A stretch of 64,000 nucleotides of DNA from Capsulimonas corticalis (GTDB lineage Bacteria > Armatimonadota > Armatimonadia > Armatimonadales > Capsulimonadaceae): contig NZ_AP025739.1 of the NCBI RefSeq assembly GCF_003574315.2, forward strand, positions 62,001 to 126,000, in the 5' to 3' direction. The position numbers were made by a program, and so were the translations under genes. Below the pieces are notes generated by a model. That model was not told the origin of the DNA, ran no database searches, and saw only the letters and a list, made by a program, of their open reading frames with translations. Below, one piece after another: positions 5,313 through 63,677 of the stretch (position 1 is the stretch's first letter; every line of letters starts with the position of its first letter).

Positions 5313-5370
5313 CAACACTTGAACAAAATAAGTATACCACGCCAGGTCAAATTAATCAACACTTGTACAA
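5313..5370. promoter_or_regulatory. Paired operator-like repeats around the element promoter
   Basis: Two 14-bp direct repeats, CAACACTTGAACAA (5313-5326) and CAACACTTGTACAA (5357-5370), differ at one base and start 44 bp apart, about four helical turns. The second contains the perfect palindrome TTGTACAA and abuts the -35 box. The first lies at the expected transcription start. This layout would let a dimeric repressor, plausibly the divergent two-HTH protein, loop or block the promoter. Confidence 0.6.
5331..5359 (-). promoter_or_regulatory. Promoter of the leftward element operon
   Basis: Read on the minus strand: -35 TTGATT (5354-5359), 17-bp spacer, -10 TATACT (5331-5336). It points at the small HTH gene at 5288. 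Operator-like repeats lie on both sides (see the next entry). Confidence 0.75.
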
Positions 5371-5459
5371 CACTTTTTTAACGAGTAGCTAACAGAATGT
5401 GAACGGTGGGAGCTAAAATTCTGTAGGGAAAGCAGCCCACAAGATTGGATGGTTCGTTG

Positions 5460-53286: not shown

Positions 53287-54837
53287 ATGAATACGAACTC
53301 CCTGCGCATCGCGCTCGCGCCGCTCGACGAACGCCCCGTCAACACCCGCTATCCGCAAATGCTCGGGCAGATCGCCGGCGCCGAAGTTCTGCTGCCGCCC
53401 TCGGAAGCGCTCGGCCTTCAGCGCGAGCCCGCGGATCTGCCGGTCATCACGCAATGGCTGCGGGACACGGCGCCGACGACTTCGGGCGCGATCGTCTCGT
53501 GCGACTATCTGGGCTACGGCAATCTGATCAACGCCCGTATCTCCCAGGACAGCGCGGCGGCCGTCCTGGGGCGGCTGAGCATTCTGGAGGAGATCGGCGC
53601 GCGGATCCCCGTGCACGCCTTCTCCCTGATCACCCGGGTCGCCAACGCCGACAACTGTGTCGAGGAGCCGCTCTACTGGGAAAAGTGGGGCACGCGCTTT
53701 TACCGATGGGCGCGGCTGACGCACCAGTCGGAAACGAGCCTGCTTCCGCCGGAAGACCGCGTGGTTTTGAAAGATCTGGACGCCCAGCTTCCGCCGGACC
53801 TGAAAGCCGATTGGCTGATGCGGCGCCTGCGCAACCATACCGTCAACTTGGGGCTGATCGACCTGGCGGCGCGCGGCAAAGTCGCGAGCCTGCTGCTGAC
53901 CTCCGACGACACCGCCGCCTACGGCTTTCCCAGCCGCGAGCGGGACTGGCTGCGCGGCTGGCCGCGCCTGATCGGCCCGGCGCTGTCATCGCGGCTGCAC
54001 ATGTATCCCGGCGCCGACGAAGTCGGTTCGGCGCTGGCGGCGCAGCTGATCAACGCGCATCACGGACGCGCGCCCCTGGTCTGGGTGGAGTATGCGATCC
54101 CCGGCGATGAGGAGTATATCGCGCCTTACGAAGACCGCCCGGTGCGCGAAACCGTGCTGGGACAGATCTCCGCCTGCGGATGCGTCCTCGCCGAATGCCC
54201 CGAAGAAAGCGACTTCATCCTCGGAGTCGTCACGCCCTCGCCCCGGCGCACGGACTATCGCCTGGAATACGCGGAGGAGGACCGCCGGGATCGCACCGCC
54301 CCTTATTTGCGCTTTATCGCCCGTCTGGCGGGCTGGCAGGCGCGGGGTCTGGCCGTGGCCGTGGGCGATGTCGCCTACCCCAATGGCGGCGATCCGCTCT
54401 TTTCCGACTTGCTGCTGGACCCGGCTTCGGCGCTGCGTCCCGGGGGGCTGGCGGCGTACGGCGCCTGGAACACGGCGGGCAACACGCTGGGCGTGGTGGT
54501 GGCCCAGGCAGTCTGCGCGCTGTACATCGAAGACAACGCCGAGCAGGCAGAGGCGCAAAAGCGCTTCCTGGCGCATCGGTTCCTGGAGGACTGGGGATAT
54601 CAGACGGTCGCGCGCCGCGCCGCTCGCGACATCATCGAACAGAGTTTTGGACGCCGCGACCCCGACCCCAACTCTCTCGAACAGATCGCCGAGACCCGCA
54701 AAGCCATCGAAGAACAGCTGACGAGTTTACTTACCCGGCTTCAGCAGTCCGGAGTCGGCGAGGGGCTGACGCTCGTTCCCGGGAGCGCCCGCCTTCCCTG
54801 GCGGCGAACCTTCGAGGTGGATTTCGATCTGTCCTGA
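53287..54837 (+). CDS. DUF4127 family protein
   Basis: Encodes 516 residues; the ATG follows the kinase stop by 1 bp. The opening RIALAPLDERPVNTRYP, the SCDYLGYGNLINAR segment and HGRAPLVWVEYAIPG fit DUF4127, a family of uncharacterised cytoplasmic proteins that I recall near sugar or sialic acid genes. No signal peptide. Likely takes part in amino-sugar catabolism by context; reaction unknown. Confidence 0.82.
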   Translation: MNTNSLRIALAPLDERPVNTRYPQMLGQIAGAEVLLPPSEALGLQREPADLPVITQWLRDTAPTTSGAIVSCDYLGYGNLINARISQDSAAAVLGRLSILEEIGARIPVHAFSLITRVANADNCVEEPLYWEKWGTRFYRWARLTHQSETSLLPPEDRVVLKDLDAQLPPDLKADWLMRRLRNHTVNLGLIDLAARGKVASLLLTSDDTAAYGFPSRERDWLRGWPRLIGPALSSRLHMYPGADEVGSALAAQLINAHHGRAPLVWVEYAIPGDEEYIAPYEDRPVRETVLGQISACGCVLAECPEESDFILGVVTPSPRRTDYRLEYAEEDRRDRTAPYLRFIARLAGWQARGLAVAVGDVAYPNGGDPLFSDLLLDPASALRPGGLAAYGAWNTAGNTLGVVVAQAVCALYIEDNAEQAEAQKRFLAHRFLEDWGYQTVARRAARDIIEQSFGRRDPDPNSLEQIAETRKAIEEQLTSLLTRLQQSGVGEGLTLVPGSARLPWRRTFEVDFDLS

Positions 54838-54861: not shown

Positions 54862-54917
54862 TTGTAACCCGCCATTAACCTCATGCACGCCTGCCTTGGG
54901 CGTCGCCGGGGTACAGT
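54862..54917 (+). promoter_or_regulatory. Boxed promoter A (PHO-box-like), upstream of a putative small RNA
   Basis: TTGTAAC (54862-54868), 6 bp, TTAACCT (54875-54881), 28 bp, GGTACAGT (54910-54917) containing the -10 TACAGT. Spacing and boxes are identical to promoter B at 55061-55116. The (G/T)TAAC-type direct repeats at about 11-bp steps resemble PhoB/PhoP boxes. No -35 consensus, so activator-dependent. Confidence 0.65.
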
Positions 54918-54923
54918 AGGGTT

Positions 54924-55024
54924 AGCCGCAATGAAATACGCTTGCTGCTGAGAGTTTGGCAGAACTCTCAAACATAAAGACCCCTTTTCACAGCCTTTTC
55001 CAGAATCTTGGAAAGGGCTTTTTT
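54924..55024 (+). ncRNA. Putative small RNA of about 100 nt
   Basis: Between the expected start of promoter A and a strong terminator: a hairpin GAGAGTT/AACTCTC (54950-54956 with 54963-54969), a single-stranded linker, and a final stem (54993-55002 with 55009-55018) followed by TTTTTT. No reading frame in it is supported. It is inferred from layout only. Confidence 0.55.
54993..55024 (+). terminator. Intrinsic terminator of the putative small RNA
   Basis: A 10-bp stem (one G-T pair) with a six-base loop followed by six T (55019-55024). Confidence 0.85.
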
Positions 55025-55060
55025 GCATCCTCAGAGTCGCCCATATAACAATAATTTCGT

Positions 55061-55116
55061 TTGTAACTATGCGTTAACCTAATCCGCAACAAGCATGGAT
55101 CGACGGCTGGTACAGT
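55061..55116 (+). promoter_or_regulatory. Boxed promoter B (PHO-box-like) of the DUF4331 operon
   Basis: TTGTAAC (55061-55067), 6 bp, TTAACCT (55074-55080), 28 bp, GGTACAGT (55109-55116). Same boxes and spacing as promoter A. The transcript would have a leader of about 93 nt before the ATG at 55216. Confidence 0.7.
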
Positions 55117-55215
55117 TGTCCTTGCATGGAACTCGCGCCGGATCAGGCTTCGGACTTCGTTCCGCGCCGCATTCGGCCCGCATTCTTGTTCGCGATTCAC
55201 GACAAGGAGATACGC

Positions 55216-55932
55216 ATGGCACTCTCTCGTAAAAACATCATTCTGCTGGCGGCGGGCGTAGCGCTCATTCCGACCGGATTTCTGCTGAAGGCGCATGGAT
55301 CGGACCACGCCGATACCCCGGCGATCGCCGCTCAGCCGGGCGCGGACCTTACCGACGTCTTTGTGTTTCCCTCGCCCTCCGACTCCTCGAAAGTCGTCCT
55401 GGCGATGGACGTACACCCTTTGATCCCCAGCGGCGGATCCGGCGGTGTATCCTTCGACCCAAGCGTTCTCTATCAGTTCAAAATTGATAACACCGGCGAC
55501 AATGTCGAGGACCTTGTCATACAAGCCCGCTTTATCGGAACGGGATCGAGCCAGCGCGTCTTGATCTCTGGTCCCATGAAGCCGGATCGCACCGGAACGG
55601 TTACTACGGCGCTGGCGCCCTACGCCGTCACGGGCGCGATCAATCAGGCCTTCTCTCCCGCCACGGGGATCGAAGTCTTCGCGGGCGCGCGAGAAGATCC
55701 CTTCTTCTTCGACCTGAACCGCTTCTTTACGATCCTGCCCGACCGCGCGACGCCGATCACCGGCACGGCGGTCAGCAATCCAAATCAGCCCCAGGCCGCA
55801 AGCTTCAACAACCCGGGAACGGACTTCCTCGCGCCGTACAACGTGCTCGCCATTGTCGTGGAGCTGCCGAAAACGTCGCTGGTCCCGGGGACGAATAAGA
55901 AGATCCACGTTTGGTGCACCACCAGCAAATAA
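55216..55932 (+). CDS. DUF4331-domain exported protein (N-terminal part of the family)
   Basis: Encodes 238 residues; AAGGAG is 6 bases before the ATG, and a longer frame from 55126 lacks this. Signal-anchor helix at residues 6-24, then HGSDHADTPAIAAQPGADLTDVF (split motif of the family), DNTGDNVEDLVIQ and EDPFFFDL. DUF4331 proteins are exported and of unknown function. The usual C-terminal half is absent here and is encoded by the next gene. Confidence 0.82.
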   Translation: MALSRKNIILLAAGVALIPTGFLLKAHGSDHADTPAIAAQPGADLTDVFVFPSPSDSSKVVLAMDVHPLIPSGGSGGVSFDPSVLYQFKIDNTGDNVEDLVIQARFIGTGSSQRVLISGPMKPDRTGTVTTALAPYAVTGAINQAFSPATGIEVFAGAREDPFFFDLNRFFTILPDRATPITGTAVSNPNQPQAASFNNPGTDFLAPYNVLAIVVELPKTSLVPGTNKKIHVWCTTSK

Positions 55933-55961: not shown

Positions 55962-56534
55962 ATGTTACAGAAAAAATTCATGCTTGGCGGTTTGGCGCTC
56001 AGCCTCGCGGCGATCGCTCTGGCGGGCTGCGGCGGCAGCGGCGACAGCGGCGGAACGAAGACTTACACGCAAGTTGACCGACTGGCCCGCCCCGCCGTCA
56101 ACGAAGTCTTCGCGACAGTCGCCAATAATCGGCACCAGATCAACGACCAGGACAATCCCACGGATGACTCCGGGCAGCTCGCCAACGATATCCAGAGCTT
56201 CATGGTCGGAACCGCCGGCCGCTCCCAGGCGATCACGAACGTCGTCAAGGCCGTACTGGTCCCCGACGTCATGGTGGCTGACTTGAGCCAGTCCGGCAAC
56301 GCGACCTACCTGGGCGTGGAAACCGGCGGAGCCACCGGCGGCACGTTTGGCGGCCGCGACCTGAAGGATGATGTCGTCGACACCTCGCTCGGCGTCATCT
56401 TCGGAGCCACCGTGCCGACGCTCGGCCTGGCGCCGGAAGACGGGAAAGAGATCCCCGCGCTGACGAGCGACCATGTCGGCTTCGGCGCGAAGCACTTCAC
56501 GAGCGCATTCCCTTACCTGGGAGCGCCCAAGTAG
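55962..56534 (+). CDS. Lipoprotein with DUF4331 C-terminal half
   Basis: Encodes 190 residues; AGGAGA precedes the ATG at 55962. Lipobox LAGC (residues 20-23) after a short signal peptide, then a Gly/Ser linker and VDRLARPAVNEVFATVANN, the C-terminal DUF4331 pattern (R-x2-x-P-x-VNE). Probably pairs with the upstream product outside the cytoplasm. Confidence 0.78.
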   Translation: MLQKKFMLGGLALSLAAIALAGCGGSGDSGGTKTYTQVDRLARPAVNEVFATVANNRHQINDQDNPTDDSGQLANDIQSFMVGTAGRSQAITNVVKAVLVPDVMVADLSQSGNATYLGVETGGATGGTFGGRDLKDDVVDTSLGVIFGATVPTLGLAPEDGKEIPALTSDHVGFGAKHFTSAFPYLGAPK

Positions 56535-56591: not shown

Positions 56592-56616
56592 CTTCGATGT
56601 GGAGTCGATCAATACG

Positions 56617-57990
56617 ATGAAACGAGCCGCTATCGCCGCTTCCGCCCTCGCTTTGTGCCTCGCCGGCTGGGCCTGGACCAGCCGCAAGGCGCAGTCACGC
56701 CCGCCCAGCGGCCCTCCCGCGCAGCACGAACCTTACGATCCAGGCCGCCTGGAGCACACCATCCGTTTTTATGAAAGCAATATCCAGCGCGACTCGGAAG
56801 ACGCCATCGGTCGGTCGCTGCTCTCCGGATTCTATTTGCAGCGCTGCCGCGAGACCGGCGACATCGCCGACGCCGCGCGCGCCGAAGCGATGGCCCGCAA
56901 GTCGCTGGCGATCCGAACCCGCAATAATATCGCCGCTTACGATCAGCTCGCGCTCAGCCTGTTCACCCAGCACAAATTCCCCGAGGCGCTTGCGCTCACG
57001 CAAAAGATCGTCAACGCCGCTCCTTCCGATGCGCAGGCGCAGTCGCTTCTCGTGGAGCTGAACACGGAAATGGGCGAGTACCCCAGCGCCGCCACCGGGA
57101 TGGCGAAGCTCGCCGCCGGCAACCACGACCCGCACACGCTGGCGATGGCCGCGCGCCTGATGGAGCTGACCGGCAATCTGGACGGGGCGCTGGCGCAAAT
57201 GCAATCGGCGCGCGCGCAGGCCGACACCAACCTGGATATGTCGGCGGAAGGCGACGCCTGGTATCACATGCGCGAAGGTAACATGCTGGGCGCGCTGGGC
57301 CGGGCGGACGAAGCAAAAAAGGCGTACCTCGCCGCCGTCGCCCTCTTCCCGAACGATTACCGCTCCATGACCTTTTTGACGCGCCTCGCGGCCGGCCGGG
57401 GAGATAACAAAGAAGCGATTGACTGGGGCAAACGATCCTCCGCGATCGTGCCCACTCCGGAGATCCTGGCTCTGCTCGGCGACGCCTACACCGCGTCGGG
57501 AGACACCCGGCAGGCCAATCTGCAATACGCGATGGTGGACGCCGCCGGGCGAATCGCGCGCTCGCAGGGCGGGGTTTACGACCGGCAGCGCGCCATCTAC
57601 TGCGCCGACCATCACGTCCACCTCCCCGAGGCCGTGCGGATCGCCCGGCATGAGCTGACGATCCGGCATGACGTCTACGCCTACGACACGCTCGCCTGGA
57701 CCAGTTACCAGGCCGGCGATCTTCCGACGGCTTCCTCGGCGATGTCCAAAGCGCTGGCGTGGCGCACGCAGGATTCGCTGCTGGAATACCACGCCGGAAT
57801 GATCGCAAAGGCGCTTGGCGACTCCGCCGGCGCGCGCGCTCATCTGGCGAAGGCCCTGGCGCTGAACCCCTACTGGAACCCATTCGCGCCGAAACTGGCC
57901 CGCGCCACTCTCGACACACTGAACGCGGCCGGCGCGGCGACCGCGCAAATCCCGGCTTCGCCGCAAACGCCGCCCACACCCAGGAGTTAA
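56617..57990 (+). CDS. Exported TPR-repeat protein
   Basis: Encodes 457 residues from the ATG at 56617, which opens a signal peptide (to about residue 25). About eight TPR-like helical pairs follow (for example ALFTQHKFPEALALTQKIV-type units without the exact start). It sits between DUF4331 and the transporter gene and ends 8 bp before the next start, so it probably assembles the periplasmic part of the system. Confidence 0.75.
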   Translation: MKRAAIAASALALCLAGWAWTSRKAQSRPPSGPPAQHEPYDPGRLEHTIRFYESNIQRDSEDAIGRSLLSGFYLQRCRETGDIADAARAEAMARKSLAIRTRNNIAAYDQLALSLFTQHKFPEALALTQKIVNAAPSDAQAQSLLVELNTEMGEYPSAATGMAKLAAGNHDPHTLAMAARLMELTGNLDGALAQMQSARAQADTNLDMSAEGDAWYHMREGNMLGALGRADEAKKAYLAAVALFPNDYRSMTFLTRLAAGRGDNKEAIDWGKRSSAIVPTPEILALLGDAYTASGDTRQANLQYAMVDAAGRIARSQGGVYDRQRAIYCADHHVHLPEAVRIARHELTIRHDVYAYDTLAWTSYQAGDLPTASSAMSKALAWRTQDSLLEYHAGMIAKALGDSAGARAHLAKALALNPYWNPFAPKLARATLDTLNAAGAATAQIPASPQTPPTPRS

Positions 57991-57998
57991 AAACGTCC

Positions 57999-59741
57999 AT
58001 GAATATCCGACGTTTCGTGACCGCGGCGCTCACCGCCGCGCTGCTCGCGGGAGCCGCCTTCACCGCGCCCGCCGGCGCTCATCCGATGGGGAACTTCTCC
58101 ATCAGCCACTACAGCCGCATCACGGCCGCCAAGGCCGGTTTGCAGATCTTTTACGTGCTGGACATGGCGGAGATCCCCACCGTGGCGGAGCGCGCCGCGA
58201 TGGACACGAACGGCGACGGCAAGATCACCCCGGCGGAGCAAACCGCCTATCTCGCCGCAAAAACACCCACGCTGGCCCAGGGATTGACGCTCACAGCCGA
58301 CGGGCGCCCGGTCCCATTGGACATCGCGTCCAGCAATCTGGCCTTCCGGCCGGGCGCCGGCGGACTAGACACGATGCGGCTGACGATGGATCTGAAGCCC
58401 GCCGCTCCGCTCGGCGCCGGAGCGCACAAGATCGCGTATCAAGACGGCAACTACGCCGAGCGCACCGGGTGGAAAGAGATCGTCGCGACAACCGACGGAC
58501 ACGCGTATCTTGGCGACGCCTCCGTACCGTCGACCGACCGCACTCAGGCGCTCACCGTTTATCCCAGCATCACGGCGATGTCGCCGCTCCAGGAAACCTC
58601 GGCGACCTTCACCGTTTCCGACACGCCCATCGCGGCGTCGGCGGCGCTTGCGGGAACGCCCGCTCAGACGGCGGCGCCCAGCGTTTCCGCGACAAACACC
58701 AGCACGCCGCAGGACCGCTTCACGCAGGCGATCGCGGCGAAGAAGCTGACGCCGGGGATCATGCTGGTCGGTCTTCTGATCGCTTTTGTCTTCGGCTCTT
58801 TCCATGCGCTCTCGCCCGGCCATGGCAAGACGATGGTCGCGGCGTATCTGGTCGGGTCGCGCGGCACGGTCAAGCACGCGTTCCTGCTCGGCGTCGTGGT
58901 CACGATCACGCACACGCTCGGCGTCTTCGCGCTTGGCCTGGTGACGCTGTTCGCCTCGCAATATATCGTCCCGGAGAAGCTCTTCCCGATATTGAGCGTT
59001 ATCAGCGGCCTCGCGGTCTTCGGCGTCGGCCTCTGGCTGTTCTATAGCCGCATCCGGGGCCTGGACACGGGACATTCCCACGATCACGCGCACGACCATG
59101 GGCATAGCCACGATCATGATCATGATCACAGTCACGACCACGATCATGACCATAGCCACACGCACGAACATCACGATCATGACCACACGCACGAACATGT
59201 TCACGAGCATGTCTATGAGCCTGCCCTGGCGCTGGCGACATCCAATGGGCATGTCCACACGCATATTCACGAGATCGGCCATACACACGATCACGATCAT
59301 GATCACGACCATGGACACGATCATACGCACGATCACGATCATAGCCACGATCACGGACACAGTCATGACGGCGGCCACTCGCATGGGTTCGGGCATCACC
59401 ACCATCATCACGTTCCCGAAGGGCCGATTACGGCGAAGTCGCTGATCGCGCTGGGGATCTCAGGCGGCATCGTCCCCTGCCCGTCCGCGCTCGTCGTGCT
59501 TCTCTCAGCCATCGCGCTGCACCGGATCGCCTACGGTCTGCTGCTGATCACGTCCTTCAGCATCGGCCTCGCCTCGGTGCTGATCGCGATCGGCGTCGCG
59601 GTGGTGTCGGCGTCCAAGCTTTTGCAGCGCGTTCCGCGAAGCGACGCCTTCACGCGCTTCATGCCGATCTTCAGCGCCGCCGCCGTCACCACCATCGGCG
59701 TCATTCTGGTCATTCGCGCGATCGGCGGCGCCCCTCTGTAA
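57999..59741 (+). CDS. Nickel/cobalt-type transporter with exported N-terminal domain and His-rich loop
   Basis: Encodes 580 residues. Signal peptide, an exported domain beginning AHPMGNFSISHYSRI with an EF-hand-like DTNGDGKITPAE (residues about 68-79), then a membrane part with HALSPGHGKT (the HX4-type signature of RcnA/NiCoT-like carriers). A loop from about residue 355 to 470 has more than 50 His and many Asp residues in H-D/S-H units. A further four helices follow. It likely moves nickel or cobalt; direction not certain, RcnA relatives are exporters. Confidence 0.8.
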   Translation: MNIRRFVTAALTAALLAGAAFTAPAGAHPMGNFSISHYSRITAAKAGLQIFYVLDMAEIPTVAERAAMDTNGDGKITPAEQTAYLAAKTPTLAQGLTLTADGRPVPLDIASSNLAFRPGAGGLDTMRLTMDLKPAAPLGAGAHKIAYQDGNYAERTGWKEIVATTDGHAYLGDASVPSTDRTQALTVYPSITAMSPLQETSATFTVSDTPIAASAALAGTPAQTAAPSVSATNTSTPQDRFTQAIAAKKLTPGIMLVGLLIAFVFGSFHALSPGHGKTMVAAYLVGSRGTVKHAFLLGVVVTITHTLGVFALGLVTLFASQYIVPEKLFPILSVISGLAVFGVGLWLFYSRIRGLDTGHSHDHAHDHGHSHDHDHDHSHDHDHDHSHTHEHHDHDHTHEHVHEHVYEPALALATSNGHVHTHIHEIGHTHDHDHDHDHGHDHTHDHDHSHDHGHSHDGGHSHGFGHHHHHHVPEGPITAKSLIALGISGGIVPCPSALVVLLSAIALHRIAYGLLLITSFSIGLASVLIAIGVAVVSASKLLQRVPRSDAFTRFMPIFSAAAVTTIGVILVIRAIGGAPL

Positions 59742-59880: not shown

Positions 59881-60885
59881 GTGAACACCATCGATCACAC
59901 GAAACGCCGTGTCGCCGTTCTGCTCGGCTCTCTCTTCGCCATCAACATCTTGATCTGGCTCGTGACCTGGGGCGCTTCGCATACGTACCCCGTGCTGCTG
60001 GCGACGGGATGGCTGGCGTACGCCTTCGGCCTGCGCCACGCCGTTGACGCCGACCATATCTCGGCCATCGACAACACGACCCGCAAGCTGATGCAGGAAG
60101 GCAAGCAGCCGATCGGCGTCGGCTTCTTTTTCTCACTCGGACACTCGACCATCGTCGTTCTCCTCTGCGCCGCGCTCGCCGTCGCCGCCTCATACGTGCA
60201 GCAGCACCTGCACGGCTGGCAGGCGCTGGGCGGCCAGGTCGGCGCGCTCGTGTCCAGCAGCTTTCTGTACATCATCGGTTTCGTCAACCTGATCGTCTTC
60301 ATCGATCTCGTCGGACGCATGCGCGCGCTGTCGCGCGGCCGCGATCTCGACGAGGAAGCGCTGCACAATGCGATGGAGCAGCGCGGTTTCCTGGCGCGGA
60401 TCTTCCGGCCGATTTTGCGCATGGTGACGAGCAGCCGTCAGATGTACCTCGTCGGCTTCTTGTTCGGCCTGGGGTTCGACACCGCGACCGAAGTAGGACT
60501 GCTGGGAATGTCCGCCCACTCGGGACAAACGGGGACGCCGATCTGGGTGATCATGCTCCTGCCGGCGCTCTTCACGGCGGGCATGTGCCTGATCGACACG
60601 CTCAACAGCGTTCTGATGCTCGGCGCCTACGGCTGGGCGTTTATCAAACCCGTCCGCAAACTCTATTACAATCTGAGCATCACGCTGATTTCGGTCGTCG
60701 TCGCATTCGTCATCGCCACGCAGGAGATGCTGGGCCTGGCGCATATCGATCTGTCGCCCAAGGGGCCATTCTGGCAGTCGCTGGACGACCGTCTCGGCTT
60801 CGTCATCATCGCCGTATTCCTTGCCGGCTGGGCGATCTCCGCCCTGCTGCATAAGATCCGCACGTACGAGCCGGAACAATCATGA
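59881..60885 (+). CDS. HoxN/HupN/NixA-family nickel/cobalt permease
   Basis: Encodes 334 residues from a GTG. Eight membrane helices; RHAVDADHISAIDN is the NiCoT helix-II signature that binds the metal, and LGFDTATEV and the second GHSTIVV motifs are present. It imports nickel or cobalt with high affinity. It has no His-rich loop, unlike the transporter upstream, so the pair may be an importer and an exporter. Confidence 0.9.
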   Translation: MNTIDHTKRRVAVLLGSLFAINILIWLVTWGASHTYPVLLATGWLAYAFGLRHAVDADHISAIDNTTRKLMQEGKQPIGVGFFFSLGHSTIVVLLCAALAVAASYVQQHLHGWQALGGQVGALVSSSFLYIIGFVNLIVFIDLVGRMRALSRGRDLDEEALHNAMEQRGFLARIFRPILRMVTSSRQMYLVGFLFGLGFDTATEVGLLGMSAHSGQTGTPIWVIMLLPALFTAGMCLIDTLNSVLMLGAYGWAFIKPVRKLYYNLSITLISVVVAFVIATQEMLGLAHIDLSPKGPFWQSLDDRLGFVIIAVFLAGWAISALLHKIRTYEPEQS

Positions 60886-62123
60886 GCCCGCGCACGCACA
60901 ACTCATCGCTGGCGACGGGCGATGTCCCGATGTCCTCCGATGAGGAGCTGGTCTTGCTGCGCGCGCTCTTGCGCGCCTCGGACTACGGGGTGCTGCTTTC
61001 CGACTCGACCGGCCAGGACTTGATCTGCAATCCGCGCTTCGGCGAAATGTTCGGTTTCGACGTCGTGGAATCTCTGAACGACGGCCCGGAACAGGTGCGC
61101 GCGCAGATGATTCCGCGCGTAATGGATCCGGAAGAGTTCGTCCAGACACTCGATGAGATCTACGCCGATCCCACCCTGACGCGCGAGGATGAGATCGCGA
61201 TCCTGGCGCCCAAGTATCGACTCCTGCGCCGCTACACGGCGCCGGTGCTGGATGACCATATGGCGGTGATCGGCCGCCTCTGGACATTCCTGGACATCAC
61301 GCGCACGCGCCGGCTGGAGCAGAAAGTGCGGACTCAGTCCGAGCAGCTCAAACAGCAGTCGCGCGAGCTCGCCAACGCGCTCAAAGCCGCGCACGGACGC
61401 CTGCATAAAGTCGAGGATGTCCTCACCCAGACCCAGCAGCAGCTTCTGGAATCCGAGAAGCTATCGGCGGTCGGCCTGCTCGCGGTCTCGGTCGCGCACG
61501 ATATCCGCAATATCCTGACGCCGCTCGCCATCGAGCTTGCCCTCGCCGATCAGGACGATCGCGCGCAGCGCGCCGAGTCATTCGATCTGATCCAGAAGCA
61601 GGTCGATCGTCTGTCGCTCCTGACGCATCGCCTGCTCGGCATCGCTCGTCCGCAGGCGACGCACCGCGCGCCGGTCGATCTGCCGGCTCTGGTCGCGCAT
61701 ACCGCCGAGCTGCTGCGCCCACAGGCCGCGCAGGAGAATGTCACGGTCTCGATCCAGATCGCGAAAAAAATCCCCACGGTTGTCGGCGATCTGGGACAGC
61801 TGGATCAAGTCCTGGTCAACCTCGCGCTGAACGGAGTCCAGGCGATGCACGCCTGCGGCGGGACGCTCACCATCTCCCTCGCGCGCGACAAGGGCGGCGC
61901 CTGCCTGAAAGTTTCGGACACCGGTCCCGGGATTCCCGCGAATATCCGCCGCCGTTTGTTCGATCCGTTCTTCACGACCAAGGAAAACGGCGCCGGTCTG
62001 GGACTGTTCTCCAGCCGGCGCATCGTCCAGGACCACGGTGGCGTGATGAAGCTGCGCAGCTCGTCCTCCGGAACTCAATTTTCGATCTGGCTGCCGGCAG
62101 AAGGAGCGAAACATGGCGGGTAA
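60882..62123 (+). CDS. PAS-domain sensor histidine kinase, cytoplasmic
   Basis: Encodes 413 residues; start overlaps the permease stop by 4 bp. A PAS domain (about 25-150) and a coiled linker precede HisKA (SVAHDIRNILTP, His about 206) and the ATPase domain (NLALNGVQAM, SDTGPGIP, GAGLGL). No membrane helix, so it senses an internal signal. It is coupled to the regulator gene that follows. Confidence 0.88.
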   Translation: MSPRTHNSSLATGDVPMSSDEELVLLRALLRASDYGVLLSDSTGQDLICNPRFGEMFGFDVVESLNDGPEQVRAQMIPRVMDPEEFVQTLDEIYADPTLTREDEIAILAPKYRLLRRYTAPVLDDHMAVIGRLWTFLDITRTRRLEQKVRTQSEQLKQQSRELANALKAAHGRLHKVEDVLTQTQQQLLESEKLSAVGLLAVSVAHDIRNILTPLAIELALADQDDRAQRAESFDLIQKQVDRLSLLTHRLLGIARPQATHRAPVDLPALVAHTAELLRPQAAQENVTVSIQIAKKIPTVVGDLGQLDQVLVNLALNGVQAMHACGGTLTISLARDKGGACLKVSDTGPGIPANIRRRLFDPFFTTKENGAGLGLFSSRRIVQDHGGVMKLRSSSSGTQFSIWLPAEGAKHGG

Positions 62124-62814
62124 GATTATGATCGTGGAGGACGACCGCGCCATCGCGCAGTCTCTGTCGCGCCTGCTGGCGCGCGAGGAGTATTACATTG
62201 TCGCCAAAAGCACGGCGGAAGAGGGCATCGCGCAGATTCGGGAGGACCCTTCCTTCGATCTGGCGCTTCTGGATGTGACGCTGCCTGGCCGCGACGGTTT
62301 CTTCTGCTGCCGCGAAATCCGCCAGCTCGGGTGGCGCGGCCCGGTCATCATGCTCACGGGGCGCAGCCTCTCCATTGAAAAGGTCGCGGGCCTGGAAGCG
62401 GGCGCCGACGACTATCTGACCAAGCCCTTCGACCCCGCCGAACTGCTGGCGCGCATCCGCGCCCATCTGCGCCGCACGCGCGACTACAACGCTCCAGACG
62501 ATCAGCAGGACCAGATCGCCGTGGACGCAGATCTGATCGTGGACCTTCGCATACGCGACGCCGTTGTCCAAGGCGCCCCCGTCCACCTGACCGACCGGGA
62601 ATTCGAGCTGCTCCTTCTCCTGGCCCGCAGCCTGGGTACGGCGCAGGACAAGATCTGGCTCTTCCAGCAGATCTGGGGATGCTCGCCCGAAATGGGCATC
62701 AAAGCGCTGGCCGTTTACATTCGACGCCTGCGGCAAAAGATCGAGGTGAACGCCGACGAACCCAGATATATCCAAACCGTGCGCGGCTTCGGATATCGGC
62801 TGGGCGGCGAGTAA
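62113..62814 (+). CDS. OmpR-family response regulator
   Basis: Encodes 233 residues; start overlaps the kinase end by 11 bp. Receiver domain with DD pair (EDDR), phospho-acceptor Asp in LLDVTLPGRDG, and TKPF Lys; C-terminal winged helix (LTDREFELLLLL, IRRLRQKI, TVRGFGYRLGG). It is the partner of the PAS kinase. The operon position after nickel/cobalt permease suggests, but does not prove, metal control. Confidence 0.9.
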   Translation: MAGKIMIVEDDRAIAQSLSRLLAREEYYIVAKSTAEEGIAQIREDPSFDLALLDVTLPGRDGFFCCREIRQLGWRGPVIMLTGRSLSIEKVAGLEAGADDYLTKPFDPAELLARIRAHLRRTRDYNAPDDQQDQIAVDADLIVDLRIRDAVVQGAPVHLTDREFELLLLLARSLGTAQDKIWLFQQIWGCSPEMGIKALAVYIRRLRQKIEVNADEPRYIQTVRGFGYRLGGE

Positions 62815-62820
62815 CAGACC

Positions 62821-63540
62821 TCAGAGACCCGGCGGCAGCAGGCCGTAGCCGACGCCGCGTCGGGTTTCCAGCAGCGAGGCGGTAATCGGGGGGAGTTTGG
62901 CGCGCAGGCGCCGGATATGGATATCCACGGTGCGCTCGCCGCCGTCGAAGTCCACGCCCCACACCATATCCAGCAGACGGTCGCGGGCGAAGAACTTGCC
63001 GCGATGGGTGCCTAAAAAACGCAGCAGGTCGTATTCGCGCGGAGTCAGGGGCAGGACACGGCCGTCGGGGTCCATCGCGCGGCCGCCGGCCAGGTCCAGC
63101 GTCAGATCGGCCAGCGACAGAGTATCTCCCGACAGGACATGGCGTTTGCGGAACAGCAGCAGATCGATGCGCGACAGCGCTTCGCGCGGGGTATAGGGCG
63201 GCAGGATAAAGTCGTCGACGGCGGCCAGCCAGTCCGGCTGCGCGAGATGCCGGGAGTCCAGCAGCGCGAGGCACGCCGGACGCGGCATGTCGTCGCCCCA
63301 CGCCTGCTGGAGCAGCCGCATGACGTGACGGATTGCGAGACAGTCGTACGTCGTGGAAAGATCGGCGAGGAGAACGTCGGGGGGGCGGCCTTCAAAGGCT
63401 CGGCACAGCGCATCCACGGCGTCGGTGCCACGGTCCATGGAAGAGCGAAAGACAATATGACCTGCTTCGGTGAGCACTTCCGCGATGGGCGTCGAGGGAC
63501 CGCCCAGCTCCATCGGCGCGTAAACCAGGATATTCTGCAT
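62821..63540 (-). CDS. Atypical OmpR-family response regulator
   Basis: Encodes 239 residues from the ATG at 63540. The receiver-like N-terminus lacks the acidic pair after strand 1 (ILVYAP), keeps a possible Asp (VLLADLS), and has FILPPY where the Lys of KPF should be. The C-terminal winged-helix is intact (LPLTPREYDLLRFLG, VDIHIRRLRAKL, RRGVGYGLL). It is probably active without phosphorylation. It is convergent with the regular regulator gene, six bp apart. Confidence 0.82.
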   Translation of the reverse strand: MQNILVYAPMELGGPSTPIAEVLTEAGHIVFRSSMDRGTDAVDALCRAFEGRPPDVLLADLSTTYDCLAIRHVMRLLQQAWGDDMPRPACLALLDSRHLAQPDWLAAVDDFILPPYTPREALSRIDLLLFRKRHVLSGDTLSLADLTLDLAGGRAMDPDGRVLPLTPREYDLLRFLGTHRGKFFARDRLLDMVWGVDFDGGERTVDIHIRRLRAKLPPITASLLETRRGVGYGLLPPGL

Positions 63541-63677
63541 GATGCGTGTCGGTTTCCCTTGGAAATCCAACCGCGTCACTGCGGTTCTCACTGGATCGGA
63601 CGTCGGACTCCACGGGGTCGAGGAGATAAAGGATTATAGCATTGCGCGGGCGAGGGCGTCAATGAGAAAGCGAAGAT

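Follow-up and report, generated by a model that had tools for sequence, protein, structure and literature searches.

Two exact copies of a composite element, TTGTAAC-N6-TTAACCT-N28-GGTACAGT, were found 199 bp apart, at 54862-54917 and 55061-55116 of the 64,000-nucleotide stretch of Capsulimonas corticalis DNA that was analysed (the window). They look like predicted tandem-repeat, activator-dependent promoters, one of them upstream of an operon with DUF4331 and nickel/cobalt transport genes, the other upstream of a short terminated stretch without a credible reading frame. The explanation that we tentatively prefer, with somewhat less than even confidence, is that PhoB would drive both promoters under phosphate limitation, giving the operon and an approx. 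100-nt RNA of the 3'UTR type.

The first-pass annotation had reported two identical motifs with the same spacings and no similarity beyond the blocks, and both observations held. The copies are identical at 32 of the 56 motif positions, 22 of these within the three blocks, and the flanks agree at the chance level (7/30 and 12/60 positions). The 378-bp intergenic region was dinucleotide-shuffled 1,500 times, and the best co-linear block set reached 17, compared with 22 observed, a value attained by none of the shuffles. The genome search for the composite motif proposed by the annotation was carried out as a pattern search of the 7,645,051-base sequence; only two matches were present in the 7.65 Mb, both at the DUF4331 locus, even when 3 mismatches were allowed, and the reversed motif used as control gave zero matches. 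With a shorter form of the motif and 3 mismatches, 2 extra places appeared, one of which is a perfect TTAAC array. On the plus strand the tandem half-sites TTGTAAC-N6-TTAACCT occupy 54862-54881 in promoter 1 and 55061-55080 in promoter 2, and the -10 regions lie at 54910-54917 and 55109-55116, respectively. In both copies the TAAC cores are exactly 11 bp apart, which gives two direct repeats at an 11-bp step, and the -10 hexamer stands 32 bp after the second TAAC. A sigma-70 promoter with a -35 box was rejected for the twins, as the scan of the DUF4127-DUF4331 intergenic region found none. Having tandem 11-bp half-sites and no -35, both elements look activator-dependent, in agreement with the promoter type assigned to them before, and an activator of the OmpR/PhoB family is well supported.

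The second promoter indeed precedes DUF4331, its end being approx. 100 bp upstream of the start codon at 55216. This codon, which has AAGGAG upstream and is conserved in the congener Capsulimonas sp. RYN_270, was taken as the start of the gene, and not the ORF start at 55126. The operon, on the plus strand, is headed by this DUF4331 gene (55216-55932, PF14224), followed by a second one carrying the C-terminal part of the family (55962-56534, PF14224), a TPR protein (56599-57990), a His-rich protein of the NicO family with an uncertain start codon (57960-59741, PF03824; matched below cut-off by NF007454, a nickel/cobalt efflux model), a HoxN/HupN/NixA nickel/cobalt transporter (59881-60885, PF03824, TIGR00802 over cut-off), a histidine kinase (60882-62123) and an OmpR-type response regulator (62113-62814). 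A convergent orphan regulator, GlnR-like by its structure relatives and with an atypical receiver, comes next on the minus strand (62821-63591). Upstream of the intergenic region lies the DUF4127 gene (53287-54837, plus strand, PF13552, E 5.9e-128). Cyanobacteria, Eremiobacterota, Gemmatimonadota and others also have the order DUF4331-DUF4331-TPR, in many cases together with NicO; of the loci compared, some of which are incomplete, that of RYN_270 alone showed the complete operon including kinase and regulator. No mention of DUF4331 was found in the literature searched.

PHO boxes are 11-nt direct repeats (PMC4415409); in E. coli they stand 10 bp upstream of the -10, and the cyanobacterial units read CTTAACCT (PMC1906773). 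Judged from its sequence, the C. corticalis genome has a genuine PHO-box class of its own, in which TTAAC is repeated every 11 bp and the -10 comes 10, 21 or 32 bp after a TAAC, and these repeats and this grid agree with the published E. coli and cyanobacterial boxes. Three TTAAC units at 11-bp steps are present ahead of an alkaline phosphatase (PF00245) and a PF04185 phosphoesterase, and also ahead of several DUF1559 pseudopilin-like proteins and of a protein that weakly matches the PstS family. Further genes with PHO arrays came from a second search; they encode a phytase-like protein (PF13449) and a calcineurin-like phosphoesterase, along with another YncE-like protein and a porin matching phosphate-selective porin O/P. 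Four-unit TTAAC arrays occur 19 times in the genome, compared with 4 in the reversed control. The -10 was on the 11-bp grid in 8 of the 12 array hits, against a background of 5.7% of the TAAC/TAAT sites in the window, and of the sites with at least 30 bits 5 were on the grid (some of these had fed the profile) versus 0-1 on four shifted grids. The genome-wide counts come from pattern searches and 2.4 Mb of sampled sequence. The unit profile, built from about 35 strong units of TTAAC-pattern arrays, leans towards the TTAAC core; the array promoters were chosen from the search hits by visual inspection, and the scores of those that fed the profile are not independent. A GG before the -10 was rejected as a Pho mark, since GGTATAAT and GGTACAAT are enriched genome-wide. 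PHO-type promoters were seen at at least six DUF1559 pseudopilin-like genes (C1 2142845, 2144259, 5827702, 2729571, 2529910 and 3585966). An AT-rich part of the window also has five NNAAC units at 11-bp steps (5356-5404); the gene downstream of them would encode a protein resembling a helix-turn-helix regulator.

The twins share the TAAC core, the 11-bp step and the grid position 32 with the PHO promoters of the genome, two DUF1559 promoters having their -10 at the same position; one position in 11 would fit the grid by chance. They are the two best PHO-profile sites of the window, and the 4 matches of TAAC-N7-TAAC-N29-34-TAYART in the genome are the two twins and two PHO arrays. Only the two distal repeats are kept and those nearest to the -10 are absent, a geometry that is also found in two strong DUF1559 gene promoters. 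Like the promoters controlled by E. coli PhoB and cyanobacterial SphR, the twins combine 11-bp direct repeats with a fixed -10 distance and lack a -35 (PMC1906773, PMC4415409), and their TTAACCT core is nearly identical to the cyanobacterial unit (PMC1906773). In contrast to the E. coli boxes, they have just two repeats, set 22 bp further upstream, and their first unit is GTAAC. This G is present in both twins but never in the approx. 35 strong PHO units of the profile; thus the core of the repeat fits the units of the phosphate genes, while the first position does not. The profile scores of the twins were 21.0 and 15.5 bits, compared with 27-42 for nearly all strong members, and in 2.4 Mb 18 and 71 sites, respectively, were as good or better, the lower score belonging to promoter 1. 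The earlier suggestion that the repeats are PHO boxes is therefore supported in part, by the core, the step and the phasing, but weakened by the low scores, the shared non-PHO G and the fact that PhoB is one of three candidate regulators.

Given the low PHO scores of the twins and the non-PHO G in both, PhoB is treated here as a candidate regulator. Pho control appears likely, and PhoB would be the best single guess among the three candidates; that it is the actual activator we regard as roughly an even call. The best PhoB candidate of the genome, which encodes ten OmpR-type regulators, is C1:4497386-4498093, with an adjacent kinase and the top PhoB-model score among the three regulators tested. 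PhoU is encoded elsewhere.

It is possible, if on the unlikely side, that the twin operators serve a regulator of the locus instead of PhoB, either the operon's response regulator, which would control its own operon jointly with its kinase, or the GlnR-like orphan, and that both promoters answer the signal of that regulator, e.g. metal or nitrogen. The exact operator is present twice and only in this one locus, the kinase and the regulator travel with the operon in RYN_270, and the GTAAC-n6-TTAAC of both copies departs from the PHO units in a way that a separate local operator would show. In the case of the orphan, the published GlnR box (gTnAc-n6-GaAAc or t/gTAAC-n6-Gc/aAAC; PMC10704036) has a first half with which GTAAC agrees, the twins have the 5-nt half-sites 6 nt apart that are typical of actinomycete GlnR boxes, and the GlnR-like regulator is encoded at the end of the operon. 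The gTnAc-n6-GaAAc box was, however, only half matched, the second half-site being TTAAC and not GaAAc; furthermore, the organism belongs to another phylum, there is no nitrogen gene nearby, and amtB/glnA genes were not found in the genome sequence sampled. The best solved relatives of the orphan regulator are 8hig and 8hih, labelled as OmpR-family regulators by the search tool, which we take to be GlnR, and the protein is 96% identical in RYN_270, compared with 77% for DUF4331. It has no Pfam receiver match, and the neighbouring genes are 77-87% identical in RYN_270. What speaks against any regulator of the locus is the grid position of the twins, which matches that of the PHO promoters.

If PhoB is preferred, an activator of the OmpR/PhoB family, most likely the PhoB of the genome under phosphate limitation, would act on the two TAAC half-sites upstream of the -10 in both promoters, neither of which has a -35. 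Promoter 2 would then serve the operon from DUF4331 to the response regulator, and promoter 1 an approx. 100-nt transcript that would start inside the DUF4127 3'UTR and share its terminator, an arrangement like that of 3'UTR small RNAs transcribed from a promoter of their own. The RNA may have a regulatory role, possibly through a single-stranded CCCC stretch.

The candidate non-coding RNA, with its presumed start, covers 54924-55024 of the plus strand. In the predicted fold two hairpins (54924-54949 and 54950-54969) are followed by a 22-nt single-stranded stretch which includes CCCC (54970-54991, AAACATAAAGACCCCTTTTCAC), and an intrinsic terminator closes the region at 54992-55023, with a 12-bp stem (54992-55019), a loop of 4 and a T run. 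The stretch folds better than its own shuffles (z -3.5), largely via the terminator. A small protein was rejected, since the only ATG frame near the RNA start reads MKYACC* and lacks a ribosome site inside the expected transcript, and so was a known riboswitch or RNA family, Rfam giving no family on the stretch up to E 1. The description of a region of about 100 nt with two hairpins, a strong terminator and no gene thus stood, but its promoter is a predicted one and the terminator may belong to DUF4127: the terminator scan found none between the DUF4127 stop codon and 54992, so the terminator is also the only visible one for this gene and may simply end its transcript. We consider 54924-55024 a fair candidate for a small RNA, and it is plausible that it would be co-expressed with the operon. 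EsrL of E. coli and other small RNAs that are PhoB-linked or 3'UTR-derived similarly are short terminated transcripts with a PHO-like promoter and the terminator of the upstream gene; the candidate, a predicted transcript, has no sequence relation to them, and PhoB binding at esrL itself is disputed (PMC10294691).

It is doubtful, though it has to be weighed, that promoter 2 is real while promoter 1 makes no functional RNA and the terminator merely ends the DUF4127 transcript, the first copy being either a promoter that is weak or vestigial, or an additional operator of promoter 2. The lack of any other terminator downstream of DUF4127 would agree with this, as would the weaker score of promoter 1 (15.5 bits, a value equalled or exceeded by those 71 sites of the 2.4 Mb) and the failure to find a relative of the interval in 40 genomes. 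The first copy, however, keeps a -10 and the exact spacing, which a bare operator would not need, and separate hairpins are predicted between the start and the terminator. An attenuating, riboswitch-like leader of the DUF4331/nickel operon, in which promoter 1 would read through when metal is bound, is suggested by a structured, terminator-ended stretch upstream of a metal-transport operon but is very improbable, given that Rfam has no match there up to E 1 and that the three-way fold draws on bases ahead of the likely start. Moreover, a promoter of the operon itself follows the terminator, and the sole alternative pairing found by eye, between CCCCUUUUC and GGAAAGGG, would likewise end in the T run.

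RYN_270 was the one genome of the same genus that was compared. Its assembly lacks the RNA interval: a contig ends at the stop codon of DUF4127, and a second one begins 134 nt before DUF4331. In the latter, the promoter 2 region retains a -10 at the co-linear position, GGTAAACT, as well as the conserved block CGCAACAAGC. A DNA relative of the DUF4127-DUF4331 intergenic interval was not found in 40 genomes; no PHO pair was present ahead of DUF4331 in other Armatimonadota, and no PHO boxes above background in cyanobacteria. A different tandem operator, TGAGCA-N5-TGAGCA, then about GTTTTTGGTCTGG, was observed upstream of DUF4331 in Nostocaceae and some Armatimonadota (loci L080, L082, L083, L085-L090 and L104; also L009 and L011), and at least 12 of the 17 matches of its core in 2.1 Mb fall upstream of DUF4331. 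In Aquimarina, Dokdonia and Aequorivita (L126-L140) the region upstream of DUF4331 contains a conserved TTAACA-N5-TTAACA, then GAAAACCG and CGTAAGTA-like blocks, which may represent an ECF-type promoter preceded by a TTAAC pair.

Another gene-free stretch with a perfect four-repeat PHO array was noticed on the minus strand at C1 ~5023460-5023597 (L201). The -10, CATAAT, lies 10 bp after the array, and the second candidate RNA would comprise approx. 84 nt, made up of a hairpin, an unpaired CCCC stretch and a strong terminator, ahead of a SpoU-type methyltransferase gene. It has the layout of 54924-55024 but not its sequence, and the CCCC in both candidates could be chance. The presence of this second candidate behind a strong array makes the idea of PHO-driven RNAs more plausible. 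The broader proposal, that the Pho regulon of Armatimonadota includes PHO-driven small RNAs and that 54924-55024, co-activated with the operon, links phosphate limitation to metal handling, seems to us rather improbable at present. Within the library searched, the literature with both 'pho regulon' and 'Armatimonadetes' consisted of community surveys only. The PHO-box class defined here provides a testable regulon for Armatimonadota, and the twin promoters together with the second RNA single out one operon and two specific small-RNA candidates whose expression can be measured under phosphate limitation.
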